The translations under genes and the position numbers were made by a program. Below, in pieces: positions 13,543-48,012 of a DNA stretch of 48,628 nucleotides. The DNA comes from a bacterium (GTDB taxonomy: Bacteria; Patescibacteriota; Minisyncoccia; CAIUEV01): the NCBI GenBank assembly GCA_021779915.1, contig JAJXZR010000002.1, positions 1 through 48,628 on the forward strand, given 5' to 3'. Each line of letters begins with the position of its first letter. Position 1 is the first letter of the stretch. The notes under the pieces were generated by a model. It did not search any database, was not told the DNA's origin, and saw nothing but the letters and a program-made list of their open reading frames with translations.

Positions 13543-13658
13543 TATTCCACTCCTTTCACGTTGTTAATGACCTTTAATGTTAATTCTGGTCTACAGGAGA
13601 AGAAAGAAATGGTCAACAAAACTACAATAAAAAACTACAGTAATGTTATCCTACCGTG

Positions 13659-13692
13659 TCATCCCGGGTCAAGCCCGGTATGACACGGTATC
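13659..13692. repeat. REP-like repeat, compact fused palindrome
   Basis: cgtgtcatcccgggtcaagcccggtatgacacgg. Confidence 0.85.
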
Positions 13693-21490: not shown

Positions 21491-21580
21491 AGTTTAAAAT
21501 TACAAGTTATAAGTTCAAAATTAAGGTGTCGCCTCAGGCGACACAAAAGCTTTGAACTTTTCACTTTTAACTTTTAACTG
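21491..21580. repeat. Intergenic cruciform-like repeat (family B)
   Basis: Outer stem aagttcaaa/tttgaactt with gtgtcgcctcaggcgacac hairpin. Confidence 0.55.
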
Positions 21581-26804: not shown

Positions 26805-27075
26805 AAAAAATTTCCAATTTTCAAACAATTTTCAAGTTTGCAATTTCATAATTATATAAACAAAACCCCCCGTGTCATTCCTGCGAAAGCGGGAATCCAG
26901 GAAAGTAATACTATATTAGTTTAATATAATTCTCCTGGATCCTCGCTTTCGCAAGGATGACACGCTGGGAGGGTATTATTTAAAAAATTGAGAATTTAAA
27001 TCATTGAAAATTGTTTGAAAATTGTCTCCTTAGGCGACCCGCCTAGGGCGGGAAAATTAGAAATTGAAAATTTGT
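26805..27075. repeat. Nested inverted repeats: outer caattttcaaacaattttcaa IR around a REP-like pair (26871-26963)
   Basis: Left outer aatttccaattttcaaacaattttcaa; right outer ttgaaaattgtttgaaaattg; inner gtgtcattcctgcgaaagcgggaatccagg / cctggatcctcgctttcgcaaggatgacac. Confidence 0.75.
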
Positions 27076-27193: not shown

Positions 27194-27259
27194 GGAGTTC
27201 GCCAGGTTATCCAACCTGGCGCCCCGTCGTATGACTGGGGCGAGTCTCCCCCACGGCAC
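27194..27259 (+). repeat. Duplicate of the tRNA-Leu 3' end (T-arm to acceptor) interrupted in the T-loop by a ~39-nt double hairpin
   Basis: ggagttcg[ccaggttatccaacctggcgccccgtcgtatgactgggg]cgagtctcccccacggcac versus tRNA ggagttcgagtctcccccacggcac. Confidence 0.9.
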
Positions 27260-31259: not shown

Positions 31260-31266
31260 GATAATA

Positions 31267-31380
31267 AATGTAAAATGTAAAAATCAAAATAGAAAATTTA
31301 GGAGTGAGCCTCGCTCACATTTAACTGCTTGTCGCTTATAGCGACACCAAAATTTTGCATTTTGCATTTTAAATTTTTAA
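31267..31380. repeat. Cruciform-like intergenic repeat (family B)
   Basis: Outer aatgtaaaatgtaaaaatcaaaat / attttgcattttgcatttt with gtgagcctcgctcac and gtcgcttatagcgac hairpins. Confidence 0.75.
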
Positions 31381-33203
31381 TTATTTCTGTTCCACTCTCT
31401 TCTTAATTTAAACTCGTACGGATAATGCTTTGTATGGAGAAGCTTTTCGGCTTTTCGGCTTTTCGGCTTGTATAGAAAATCATTGTAAAGCGCTATAATT
31501 GCTGGATTTTTGTGAGATTCTCTGAGAGGCTGGACTAAATCGCTATGGAGAAGCGATCCTGACCTTGACCTTCTAATAGAATCATTCACCGGATACGGTT
31601 GACCTCCTCCACCTATGCATCCTCCTGGGCAGGCCATTACCTCGATAAAATCATATTTTGATTTACCGGAAAGTACTTCCTCAACAATCTTTCTGGCGTT
31701 TCTTAAACCAAAAACAACGGCAATATTTAAATTTATTTTTCCAATCTTGAGTTTTGCCTCCTTAATTCCTTTGAGTCCCCTTAGCTCCTCAATCTCAAGT
31801 TTAGGAAGGCTTTTTCCTGTTAAGTAATAATAAGCGCTACGTGATGCAGCTTCTGCTACTCCTCCGCTAGTTCCAAAAATAGTTGCCGCACCTGTCCCCA
31901 TTCCTAAGGGAGGATCAAAATCTTTATCTGGCAAATCAAGGAAAGGGATTTGCAGATTTTTAATTAGATGGGCTAATTCTCTTGTTGTTAAAACAAAATC
32001 CACATCTTTAATGGAGCCGGTTGAAAATTCCGGTCTTGAGGCCTCGTATTTTTTGGCAGTGCAGGGCATAATTGAAACTAAACTAATATTTTTTGGATCG
32101 ACTTTAATTTTGGAAGCATAGTAAGTTTTTACGAGAGATCCAAGCATCATTTGGGGAGATCGAGTGGTAGAAAGATGAGGGATTAATTCAGGATAGAACT
32201 CTTCTACAAAAAGAACCCAAGCTGGACAACAACTAGTGAAAAGAGGCAAGGGGTTTTTGTGGTTTTTTTCTTTTATTCTTTCAATCAGCTCCGTGGCTTC
32301 TTCCGTTATAGTCAGATCAGCACTGGTGTTTACGTCAAAAACTTTTTCAAAGCCACATTCATAAAGAGCGGAAACTATTTTACCTGTGACTACTGATCCG
32401 GGAAGCATACCAAATTCTTCTCCTAATGTGGCTCTAACAGAGGGCGCAACCTGTGCAATAAGAATTTTATCAGGATCTTTCAGTAGCTTGATAACGGGTC
32501 CCAAATCACTTTTCTCTATGATAGCTCCGGTCGGACAATGGAGAGCACATTGTCCGCAATAGGTGCATTCGAGTGGAGCATAATTTTCTGTGCCCACTCC
32601 CATATGAATGCCCCTTTTTTGAGTGTTGAGAGCTTTAACACCCTGAATTTTGTCGCAGGTTTTAATACATCGTCGGCATTCAATACATTTTGCACTATCA
32701 CGGGCAATAGAGGGATTTTTTGTGTCGACGACCCTTCTTTCAAGTTGGTTTCTCAACTGTTCTAATGCCTCTTCACTGTCTGTTGATACTGCCTTTGGAA
32801 CGAAACGGAATTGATCAATAGAATAATGAATAGCAAGTTTTTGTAGTTCGCAGTTGAGATTTCGATAGCAGTGTGAGCAAAGACCGGCATGCTCAACAAA
32901 AAGCAACTCCAAAAGAGTTTTTCTTATGCGTGAAAGATCGTGATCATTAGATATGATCTCCAAACCGTCCTGAGTTTTAATTGCGCAACTAGGAAGGTAG
33001 TGATAATCCTCCTCTTGGGACTTTTTAACTTTAACTAGACACAATCGGCAGACTGCGTCGCTTTTTTCAAAGTCTTCATGATTGCAAAGAGAAGGGATTT
33101 CCAAGTTATTCTTTCTACAAAAATCAATCAATTTCTCTCCACTTGTACAATCAAAAATTTTCTCGTTGATTCGAATTTTAATTTTTTTCCCGACACTATC
33201 CAT
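31377..33203 (-). CDS. Monomeric [FeFe]-hydrogenase large subunit (group A) with N-terminal 2Fe-2S and 4Fe-4S domains
   Basis: H-cluster motifs TSCCPAWV, MPCTAKKYE, EVMACPGGCIGGGGQP; CIECRRCIKTCDKIQG; CTYCGQCALHCPTGAI. Confidence 0.96.
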   Translation of the reverse strand: MDSVGKKIKIRINEKIFDCTSGEKLIDFCRKNNLEIPSLCNHEDFEKSDAVCRLCLVKVKKSQEEDYHYLPSCAIKTQDGLEIISNDHDLSRIRKTLLELLFVEHAGLCSHCYRNLNCELQKLAIHYSIDQFRFVPKAVSTDSEEALEQLRNQLERRVVDTKNPSIARDSAKCIECRRCIKTCDKIQGVKALNTQKRGIHMGVGTENYAPLECTYCGQCALHCPTGAIIEKSDLGPVIKLLKDPDKILIAQVAPSVRATLGEEFGMLPGSVVTGKIVSALYECGFEKVFDVNTSADLTITEEATELIERIKEKNHKNPLPLFTSCCPAWVLFVEEFYPELIPHLSTTRSPQMMLGSLVKTYYASKIKVDPKNISLVSIMPCTAKKYEASRPEFSTGSIKDVDFVLTTRELAHLIKNLQIPFLDLPDKDFDPPLGMGTGAATIFGTSGGVAEAASRSAYYYLTGKSLPKLEIEELRGLKGIKEAKLKIGKINLNIAVVFGLRNARKIVEEVLSGKSKYDFIEVMACPGGCIGGGGQPYPVNDSIRRSRSGSLLHSDLVQPLRESHKNPAIIALYNDFLYKPKSRKAEKLLHTKHYPYEFKLRREWNRNN

Positions 33204-35853: not shown

Positions 35854-35920
35854 GAGCCGCTTGTCAGACTCGCCAGGTCATTCGACCTGGCGCCCAGTCG
35901 TATGACTGGGCGAACTGACG
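35854..35920 (-). repeat. Duplicate of the tRNA-Thr 3' end interrupted in the T-loop by a ~38-nt double hairpin
   Basis: gagccgcttgtcagactcg[ccaggtcattcgacctggcgcccagtcgtatgactggg]cgaactgacg versus tRNA gagccgcttgtcagactcgaactgacg. Confidence 0.9.
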
Positions 35921-37523: not shown

Positions 37524-37613
37524 AAAAGTAAAATTAAGGATAAAAATTTCAAGAAACAAGAAACAAATTACAAACAAATTCGAGTGTTGCAAACCCCAAA
37601 CAATAACCGTCTA

Positions 37614-37738
37614 GTGTGTCATCCCGGGCCCCAAACCATTCGGTACGGGGTAAATTTGACCCGGGATCCAGGAAAACAATATTAGACTGTTAAAATATTA
37701 CTTTTCTGGATCCCGGCTCGGGGACCGGGATGACACGT
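37614..37738. repeat. REP-like pair in inverted orientation; left arm carries an extra insertion
   Basis: gtgtcatcccgggccccaaaccattcggtacggggtaaatttgacccgggatccagg ... ctggatcccggctcggggaccgggatgacacg. Confidence 0.85.
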
Positions 37739-37801
37739 TGGATTGCTCTGTTTTGAATTTGAAAGATTATATTTTGTTTGTAACTTGTTTCTTTAAATTT
37801 T

Positions 37802-38098
37802 TTATATCACCATTCCCACTCCCCACAAAAAAACGGTTAAAATCAGAAAAATTATGCCTAGCTTCAATGCATGGAAGGCTTTTGCCATTTTAGGTTCTTC
37901 TCCAGCTGCTATCAAGTAAAAAACCAGAGAATCCAGCAGAAAGATTATTCCAATAACAAACAAAATTGCAGAAGCGTACTGGAAAAACAGCTTAAATACA
38001 CTCAAATCCAAACTCGGTTCCCTACTAATTACAGCATCTGGTCCAGATAAAACTAGATTGGCATTGACCGACCTGATAAGAAATAATTTTTCAAGCAT
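37802..38098 (-). CDS. Divergent VirB2/TrbC-like paralog
   Basis: FFQYASAILFVIGIIFLLDSLVFYLIAAGEEPKMAKAFHALKLGIIFLILTVFLWG. Confidence 0.55.
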   Translation of the reverse strand: MLEKLFLIRSVNANLVLSGPDAVISREPSLDLSVFKLFFQYASAILFVIGIIFLLDSLVFYLIAAGEEPKMAKAFHALKLGIIFLILTVFLWGVGMVI

Positions 38099-41321: not shown

Positions 41322-41443
41322 TAAAATTAAAAATGTAAAAATCAAAATGCAAAATTAGGGAGTGAGCTATGCTCACGTTTTAATTAATTGTCGCTGAAGG
41401 CGACTCCATAATTTTTATTTTTGATTTTTACATTTTTAATTAT
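41322..41443. repeat. Cruciform-like intergenic repeat (family B)
   Basis: aaaatgtaaaaatcaaaatgcaaaatt ... gtgagctatgctcac ... gtcgctgaaggcgac ... aatttttatttttgatttttacattttt. Confidence 0.8.
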
Positions 41444-43549: not shown

Positions 43550-43768
43550 CGTGTCATCCCGGGCTTGACCCGGGATCCAGGAGGGTAATAATAATTCCTA
43601 ATTCACCTAATTACCTAATTCACCTAATAAAAGTCTCAATGTCCAATATCAAAATATTTTTGAATTACACATTTTAACCATTGTGATTTTTATTATAAAT
43701 TAGGTGAATTAGAAATTAGAAATTCTATTACTGTTTTCTGGATCCCGGGTCAAGCCCGGGATGACACA
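43550..43768. repeat. Composite palindromic element: REP-like arms enclosing an inner ctaattcacctaatt inverted repeat
   Basis: cgtgtcatcccgggcttgacccgggatccagg ... ctggatcccgggtcaagcccgggatgacac; inner ctaattcacctaat / attaggtgaattag. Confidence 0.85.
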
Positions 43769-44937: not shown

Positions 44938-44946
44938 AGATAGTGA

Positions 44947-45254
44947 TTAATTTTTAATTTCTAATTTTCAATTTCCAAACAATTTCCAATTACGAAATTT
45001 CTCAATTTAATAAACAAAGAAATCCTTGTATCTACGTGTCATCCCCGGCGTGTCGACCGGGGATCCAGGAAAACGATATTAAACTAACGTAACGTTACTT
45101 TGATTCATTTTTTTAACAATATACATTAAAATAACATTCTGTTAGTCTAACTGGATCCCGGGTCAAGCCCGGGATGACACGTATTTTTTGTTTGAAAATT
45201 AAGGAATTATATAATTAAAAATTGTTTGGAAATTGAAAATTGGAAATTGAAAAT
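44947..45254. repeat. Nested inverted repeats: outer caatttccaaacaatttccaa IR around a REP-like pair (45039-45181)
   Basis: Outer left ttctaattttcaatttccaaacaatttccaatt; outer right aattgtttggaaattgaaaattggaaattgaaaatt. Confidence 0.75.
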
Positions 45255-46688
45255 TATTTACTCATCATGCAAAAACTCCTAAAATACTCCCTTATCCTCT
45301 GGCTATTGAGTGTCCCTCTCTCTTTACCCTACTCTTTGAAAGTCGCTCCGGGGAGCACTTCTTTTTTGCTTTCCGGGATCTATCTTTCTGACCTGACGAG
45401 CCTTGTTTTCCTGATCGTTTTATTTTTTTACTTCTATTCATATAAAGGCTCTTTTTCTCTTTTGAAAAATATTTTATTAAAAAAACAGAGCGTTAATTTC
45501 GTTTTGCTTCTTTTTCTTGTATTTATTTGCCTTTCGGTTTTTTGGAGCGGAGAACCTTTACTTAGTTTGCTCCTTGGATTACGGATGGTTATTTTTTTTC
45601 TGGTTTTGTTTTCTGTTGCCTATTTTTTTTCTCTTTCTTCTAAAATCAAGCGATTATTTCTCTACATCTTTGTTTTTCTAGGTGTTTTTGAAAGTTTGAT
45701 CGGACTTTTGCAAGTGGTTTTTTCTCGATCGCTCGGATTTTATCTCCTCGGAGAAAGCCATCTTGGACCGGAAGTGTTGGGATTGGCTCGTTTTCCACTT
45801 TTGGGACACGACTTTCTTCGTGCCTATGGAACACTCCCCCATCCTAATGTTTTGGGAGGTTTTTTCTTATTTACTATTTCAGCTACACTTACTTTAATAA
45901 ATTTAGAAAAAAGTAACACAAAAAATACCGAGAAGTACAAACAATGTGTCATTCCTGCGAAAGCAGGAACCCAGGAGAACAATAAGCAACATTACTGTTT
46001 ATTCATTTTGATAAGAATGGTACAAACCGGAAAAAACTGTAAATCAGTAGAAAATATAGCACTTTTTATCCAATTCATTGGTCTAATTCTCACTTTTTCT
46101 CGTTCCGCTCTTTTGGGACTGATTTTGATGGCTGTTTTAAACCTAAAAACGATAAGAAGCGTCTTCGAAAAATTCAAGAAAAAGTCGGTGGTAGTATCAG
46201 CAATACTTATTCTTATTGCTTTCAGTTTTCTTCTGCGAGGATCAGTTTATAATTTTATTTTCTTAAAGGGAGAATCAATCGAATTGCGGATGGAGCTTGC
46301 TAAAGCGTCAGAAAAAAGATTTTTAAGTTCTCCGCTTCTAGGAAGAGGCTGGGGAACGGGACCAATCGAACTTTCCGCTTTCTCTGATTACCCGTTTTAT
46401 TTTTTTGAACACCAACCGGTTCATAACATTTACCTTTTAGTTCTTTCCGATCTTGGGGTTACGGGTTTTTTGATATTTGCTGTTTTTTTGATTGGAATTG
46501 CAGTTAGAGTGAAACTGTCGGAGAAAAAAACTTTAATTTGGGGCAGTCTTTTTCTAGCCTATCTTTTTATTGGTATATTCGATCACTATCTTCTAACTTT
46601 GCCTCAAGGAATATTTATTTTTCTCGGGAGTGCTTTAATTTTCTTAGCCGAGGAGCGAAGAATAGGAAAAAAGCAATTAGGAAAATAA
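45240..46688 (+). CDS. O-antigen ligase/polymerase-like (Wzy_C family) membrane protein
   Basis: Many TM segments; LPHPNVLGGF, LTFSRSALLGL, GRGWGTGPIE, EHQPVHNIYLLVLSDLGVTG. Confidence 0.85.
   Translation: MEIENYLLIMQKLLKYSLILWLLSVPLSLPYSLKVAPGSTSFLLSGIYLSDLTSLVFLIVLFFYFYSYKGSFSLLKNILLKKQSVNFVLLLFLVFICLSVFWSGEPLLSLLLGLRMVIFFLVLFSVAYFFSLSSKIKRLFLYIFVFLGVFESLIGLLQVVFSRSLGFYLLGESHLGPEVLGLARFPLLGHDFLRAYGTLPHPNVLGGFFLFTISATLTLINLEKSNTKNTEKYKQCVIPAKAGTQENNKQHYCLFILIRMVQTGKNCKSVENIALFIQFIGLILTFSRSALLGLILMAVLNLKTIRSVFEKFKKKSVVVSAILILIAFSFLLRGSVYNFIFLKGESIELRMELAKASEKRFLSSPLLGRGWGTGPIELSAFSDYPFYFFEHQPVHNIYLLVLSDLGVTGFLIFAVFLIGIAVRVKLSEKKTLIWGSLFLAYLFIGIFDHYLLTLPQGIFIFLGSALIFLAEERRIGKKQLGK
45944..45997 (+). 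repeat. REP-like repeat inside the Wzy_C-like coding sequence
   Basis: gtgtcattcctgcgaaagcaggaacccaggagaacaataagcaacattactg, read as CVIPAKAGTQENNKQHYC. Confidence 0.85.
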
Positions 46689-47935: not shown

Positions 47936-47978
47936 GGAAGATAATTAAAAATTAAAAGTGTAAAATTCAAAAAACACT

Positions 47979-48012
47979 GTCATCCCCGGCGTGTCGACCG
48001 AGGATGACACGT
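47979..48012. repeat. REP-like repeat, compact fused palindrome
   Basis: gtcatccccggcgtgtcgaccgaggatgacac. Confidence 0.8.

Follow-up and report, generated by a model that had tools for sequence, protein, structure and literature searches.

The stretch of DNA analysed here (the window, 48,628 nt) contains at positions 26805-27075 an inverted pair of REP-like sequences in the middle of a second palindrome, which raises the question of how one palindrome came to be placed inside another. The window is contig C46 of a genome of about 1.12 Mb (1.118 Mb in 48 contigs, 95.9% complete) whose closest named relatives belong to the Moranbacteria and to related Parcubacteria, the genomes of the same family sharing about 70% protein identity. 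From these relatives we infer that the host, a small and uncultured bacterium, is a Moranbacteria-related patescibacterium.

The outer layer of the locus is an AT-rich palindrome, hereafter F1, that spans positions 26815-27024 and encloses a 92-nt inverted REP pair at 26872-26963. An initial annotation had described this nested arrangement, and it was borne out by the analysis: the outermost 21 bp of F1 pair perfectly, positions 26815-26835 (caattttcaaacaattttcaa) being the exact reverse complement of positions 27004-27024, and folding of 26805-27075 as single-stranded DNA yielded a structure far better than those of shuffled sequences (z=-10.1, 0/200 shuffles as good). In a repeat search, the F1 arms flanking the REP pair covered 57 nt and matched at 77% (26815-26871 and 26968-27024). 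The inner end of the left arm, aaacaaaacccccc, is a linker, and a linker also precedes the right arm in the segment 26964-27024. The REP pair, which is REPIN-like with its tags directed outward and is situated at the F1 tip, is real but starts one base later than annotated, at 26872 rather than 26871, and has the ends GTGTCATTCCTGCGAAAGCGGGAATCCAG and CTGGATCCTCGCTTTCGCAAGGATGACAC. The left REP (26872-26900, plus strand) consists of a G-TGTC tag, a stem ATTCCTGC/GCGGGAAT with the loop GAAA and a CCAG tail, and is CGTC-1-like, while the right REP (26935-26963, minus strand; GTGTCATCCTTGCGAAAGCGAGGATCCAG) has another stem variant, making the pair a heterodimer. Two short hairpins, gtctccttaggcgac at 27024-27038 (one mismatch) and cccgcctagggcggg at 27038-27052, had been placed just outside the palindrome; both exist, but they interrupt the right arm of F1, which resumes at 27053-27072. 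This 28-nt GC double hairpin (TCTCCTTAGGCGACCCGCCTAGGGCGGG, 27025-27052) thus lies inside the right arm and not at the tip, and splits the arm from its outermost 20 nt (AAAATTAGAAATTGAAAATT), for which there is no counterpart to the left of 26815. The double hairpin occupies the identical arm site in several other F1 copies.

The same outer and inner order, annotated at 44947-45254, was recovered at 44942-45262, where F1 arms at 44942-45008 and 45196-45262 (84%) have at their tip a 145-nt REP pair (45036-45180) with a left stem of the CCCCGG type and a right stem of the CCCGGG type. The single-stranded fold of this second locus was also far better than those of shuffled sequences (z=-10.8). 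Elsewhere in the window, a REP pair at 37616-37736 is surrounded by AT-rich arms (37542-37567 and 37777-37802) and holds a further hairpin, CCCCAAACCATTCGGTACGGGG, in its left REP loop, giving three levels, and a pair of the ~217-nt class at 43551-43767 (217 nt) has a palindromic interior of its own. AT-rich palindromes with the tip hairpins GTGAGC..GCTCAC and/or GTCGCC..GGCGAC were seen at 31266-31386, 41325-41441 and 21491-21579.

A degenerate REP pattern yielded 131 matches in the whole genome versus 0 for the reversed control. For the survey, 37 genome stretches (labelled L046, L050 and so on) were picked around REP matches and combined with the window into a sample of 428 kb, about 38% of the genome, in which absolute densities of repeats are biased upward because of this selection. 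Strong palindromes (score of at least 45) were present in 106 of the 260 intergenic regions of the sample versus 0/260 dinucleotide shuffles. An Rfam search returned tRNAs only. REPs were located within a few hundred bases of the ends of contigs C46, C30, C19, C6, C1 and C4, and since they lie near several contig ends, the assembly may be fragmented by these repeats, which could conceal longer elements.

Using a structural model of the REP end that tolerates one mismatch (ATCCAG tail), we identified 182 ends in the 428 kb, of which 144 were joined in 72 facing pairs. Most pairs were about 141, 151 or 217 nt long and a few were 92 nt. The constant parts of the ends were the GTGTC tag, an AT-first stem and the ATCCAG tail, and the stem type varied freely between the two ends, as illustrated by 24 pairs of type 1/1 and 23 of type 1/5. 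Among twelve 141-nt pairs the ends were 98% identical and the interiors 75%, compared with 62% for shuffled interiors. Symmetric single REPs with a GTGTC tag at both ends (GTGTCATCCCGGG..CCCGGGATGACAC) were seen in the window at 13656-13686 and 47977-48010, and also at L063 3791, L068 5423 and 9291, L079 719 and L065 3552; these are possibly collapsed dimers. Tandem units of about 20 nt, GTGTCATCCCGTTGCTCTCT, immediately precede a REP pair at L076 7246-7286 and L082 13116-13156.

These features fit the published super-family of CGTC/TGTC-tagged REPs (PMC3733652). Of the tags CGTC, TGTC and CCTC used to define it, TGTC is present here as an unpaired (G)TGTC before the stem, and the 8-9-bp stem with an AT start and a loop of 4-5 nt is found in ATCCCGGG-CTTGA-CCCGGGAT and in ATTCCTGC-GAAA-GCGGGAAT, while the loops of the CCCCGG and CCCGGC stem types are longer than in that definition (some of 6-8 nt). 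The scored ends finish in ATCCAG and thereby contain the CCA tail, and, as in the super-family, the elements are mostly inverted dimers (144/182 ends) with no Y1 transposase accompanying them.

The initial annotation proposed that insertion occurs preferentially at hairpin tips. For every one of the 72 REP pairs, the element was cut out computationally, the sequences on either side were fused, and the resulting junction was checked for a palindrome. The junction fell within a palindrome in 15 of the 72 cases, in the loop in all 15 and in the arm in none, and 10 of the 15 were no more than 6 nt from the symmetry centre of the host palindrome, although 5 of the 15 tip assignments have asymmetric loops. 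For comparison, of 1500 intergenic positions drawn at random outside REPs, 294 were in palindromes; the loop accounted for 123 of these, and 39 were no more than 6 nt from the centre (Fisher tests, 3.6e-6 for the loop and 6.9e-6 for the centre), so that the positions of the inserts are not random relative to loops. The 15 pairs are not fully independent, as several share F1 and the arms belong to some 3-5 families, and the statistic is much weaker if each such family is taken as a single case. Nor were REP pairs enriched in palindromes, with 15/72 (21%) against 69/300 (23%) and 294/1500 (20%) of random points. The REP pairs only avoid the arms of palindromes, without a preference for palindromes as such.

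Other hairpins are distributed in a similar manner. Small hairpins of three kinds interrupt seven REP hairpins, exactly in the loop in all seven, in a search that sees only the middle ~12 bases, of which the loop accounts for about 5 (window 37617; L082 6308; L080 11589 and 7024; L079 16677; L059 1312; L077 15979). Double hairpins in tRNA T-loops, likewise annotated earlier, were found in the T-loop of tRNA-like 3' halves in seven of seven cases. They have the form GCCAGG..CCTGGC plus GCCC(A/C)GTC..GAC.GGGC, are placed at TTC|GA in copies of tRNA 3' halves, and occur in the window at 27199-27241 and 35870-35912 and at L053 3213, L067 4126, L070 4760, and L079 3651 and 9799; the two copies in the window adjoin an intact tRNA gene. 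Small GC hairpins within larger palindromes were at the tip in 14 cases and in an arm in 2. The proposed preference for tips hence agrees with the REP pairs, the REP-loop hairpins, the double hairpins in T-loops and most of the small GC hairpins, but not with the double hairpin in the F1 arm of the locus itself (27025-27052) or with CCTGCC hairpins in the arms of the palindromes F4 and P2, nor is it matched by an enrichment of REP pairs in palindromes.

The insertion sites give some indication of the reaction. A target-site duplication of constant length was absent across the 72 REP pairs, the junction being Y|GTGTC..GACAC|R. A permutation test with loose matching gave p=0.001, yet on inspection there was no consistent length or position, and duplication was rejected; only isolated longer flank matches were seen (8 nt in L046, 6 nt in L071). 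The lack of a consistent duplication together with the form of the junction is more in keeping with a reaction on single strands than with a DDE transposase. Likewise, the features of DDE-type MITEs were missing, there being neither a target-site duplication of fixed length nor an autonomous IS with the same ends in searches for Y1, IS110, TnpB, DDE_Tnp_1 and rve.

A Y1 transposase (RAYT/TnpA_REP), the enzyme that the initial annotation suggested looking for, had no match (PF01797) in the 95.9% complete assembly. Y1 genes were present in 90 of the 142 genomes of the class and the REP motif in 18 of the 142, without a clear link, and none of the flanks of 30 Y1 loci of the class contained the REP, so that a Y1 enzyme was rejected as the mobiliser. 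IS110 (PF02371), TnpB (PF07282) and DDE_Tnp_1 (PF01609) were absent from the assembly, and its single IS481-like rve gene was discarded as a candidate because no REP-like or related ends were found nearby.

In our view the nested locus is best explained, and with fair probability, by a folded palindrome having received an insert at its unpaired tip. Three dispersed palindromic repeats, none of them coding, would then be nested at the locus: the AT-rich F1 is the oldest-looking layer, a non-autonomous dimer of CGTC/TGTC-tagged REPs would have been taken up at its tip, and the GC double hairpin would have joined one F1 arm later. An intergenic palindrome, most likely while single-stranded on the template of the lagging strand, would adopt a hairpin or cruciform fold with the loop as the sole unpaired DNA, and a single-strand-dependent reaction would put the next hairpin element into that loop without a target-site duplication. 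Each product would again be symmetric, so that nests could grow from inside. The insertion enzyme would presumably be supplied by the host or in trans. A broader version, in which a lineage-wide, loop-seeking pathway independent of Y1/RAYT places unrelated hairpins in the tips of AT-rich palindromes, REP loops and tRNA T-loops and builds nests, is doubtful.

The main rival is that the F1 arms and the REP pair are one mobile or duplicated unit, in which the REP pair owes its position at the tip to inheritance and F1-only copies are units that have lost the REP. Since the copies may not be independent, such co-propagation has to be taken seriously. It would account for the homology of F1 arms across loci, for the two arms of one locus being no closer to each other than to those of other loci, and for the recurrence of the linkers between arm and REP, as well as for the palindrome at L076 735-886, which has no REP but has kept sequence resembling a linker in its centre. 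On the other hand, F1 tips carry REP pairs of several lengths (92, 141, 145 and ~151 nt) and stem types, REP pairs are also found at the tips of arm families other than F1, and palindromic arms are missing around most of the 72 pairs. Three further F1 palindromes without a REP pair were found at L050 526-705, L056 3367-3476 and L065 2925-3039, in the last of which the F1 centre is closed and has no linker. The F1 palindrome and the REP pair are thus separate dispersed families, and a composite unit is a possible but unlikely origin of the nest. Another way to obtain a hairpin within a palindrome is to make the arms around the centre: at a small hairpin, the flank could be copied to the other side, or the arms kept identical, by template switching or inverted duplication. 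Two further hairpin families have the expected pattern, with arms 97-98% identical within a copy and 57-62% between copies (shuffled 44-51%). P4 has a conserved 23-nt loop (TGATTTTCTTATAGGAAATCCCC and variants) and arms of 36-59 nt, 98% identical within a copy versus 57% between (L078 6114-6234, L073 12507-12625, L071 12313-12421, L065 6378-6486, L046 4163-4270, L064 10653-10753, L203 and L205-L207), and P5 has a conserved 30-nt loop, GAGGACTGTCTGAGCGAAGCGAGTTCCGCA, and the same arm pattern (L068 4778-4901, L075 3670-3787 and 9525-9644, L066 4543-4660, L060 964-1093, L073 10554-10682, L194, L195, L197 and L199). Neither was found in the other 141 genomes of the class that were searched. That divergent sequences pair perfectly implies that the arms correct each other, formed recently or are strongly selected, and, judging from these sequences, arm-to-arm correction or formation may occur in this genome; the pattern merits a study of its own. 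F1 shows the opposite: the two arms of a locus resemble each other no more closely than they resemble the arms of other loci, which identifies F1 as a family of dispersed repeats rather than a locally formed duplication. Local inverted duplication was accordingly rejected as its origin, and for the nested locus we regard this explanation as improbable.

Selection for an RNA structure, such as a bidirectional terminator or a stabiliser of mRNA 3' ends, might also maintain the nesting, given the strong folds (z=-10.1 and -10.8) and the finding, in other bacteria, that REPs frequently lie 3' of genes and that their transcription is plausible (PMC3733652). However, 47 of the 72 REP pairs were between tandem genes, 9 between convergent and 9 between divergent genes, with 7 genic or at an edge, compared with 230 tandem, 47 convergent and 49 divergent intergenic regions overall. 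There is hence no enrichment between convergent genes, for which reason a terminator role of the REP pairs was rejected, and selection would leave the unrelated hairpins inserted in loops unexplained; we hold this alternative to be very improbable. Chance pairing of low-complexity AT-rich DNA around an ordinary REP would be in line with the AT-rich, quasi-repetitive nature of the F1 arms and with the single, non-palindromic F1-like runs in other genomes of the class. It is refuted by shuffling, considering the 21/21 outer pairing, the z-score of -10 and the 0/260 shuffles, and the outer arms matched in 17 of the 72 REP pairs versus 3.6 expected from mismatched flanks (p<5e-5), so that its probability is minimal.

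REPs lying inside palindromes have precedents. CGTC-tagged REPs, which include dRS3 of Neisseria and RPE-4 and RPE-6 of Rickettsia, are without a dedicated transposase, and REPs were located inside palindromes in three species, in two of which there were no free target palindromes (Di Nocera et al. 2013, PMC3733652). In H. neapolitanus, every CGTC-1 dimer is within 41-bp palindromes (PMC3733652). The elements described here share with them the unpaired TGTC tag, the ~8-bp AT-first stem, the CCA tail, the organisation in inverted dimers (HH) and heterodimers and the lack of an associated transposase. They differ in that Patescibacteria are outside the five phyla given there (PMC3733652) and in that some stems have 6-8-nt loops, and also in the presence of REP-free host palindromes, of several families of host arms and of hairpins in REP loops. 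The REP dimers of the GTAG-15 type in A. variabilis are likewise central in a long AT-rich palindrome, but have a different tag, and free target palindromes were not found in that species (PMC3733652). As in REPIN/RAYT systems, where the enzyme is an IS200/605-like Y1 transposase, TnpA_REP (PMC3116915, PMC8266576), we observed inverted REPs with conserved ends (98%) and a divergent interior (75%) and no target-site duplication, whereas the end is GTGTC instead of GTAG, the assembly has no Y1 gene and elsewhere in the class the REP is not found beside Y1 genes. A likeness of kind is seen with the mitochondrial hairpin and double-hairpin elements, in which several hairpin families crowd the intergenic DNA, tip placement not being described in the part of that account considered here (PMC2800124).

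Because REP dimers in palindromes were reported in 2013 (PMC3733652), the present case extends a known phenomenon. New relative to that study are the phylum, a palindrome family whose members occur both with and without a REP, the quantitative test of tip placement, the several families of host palindromes and the additional hairpins located in the loops of REPs. The way in which CGTC-type REPs are spread has been an open question since 2013 for want of an accompanying transposase. This genome offers more than 100 REP copies, several unrelated hairpins in loops, and palindromes without a REP that are candidate targets, which makes it a testable question whether REP insertion needs a folded single-stranded loop. 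It also illustrates how nested palindromes can come to occupy the intergenic space of a reduced genome.
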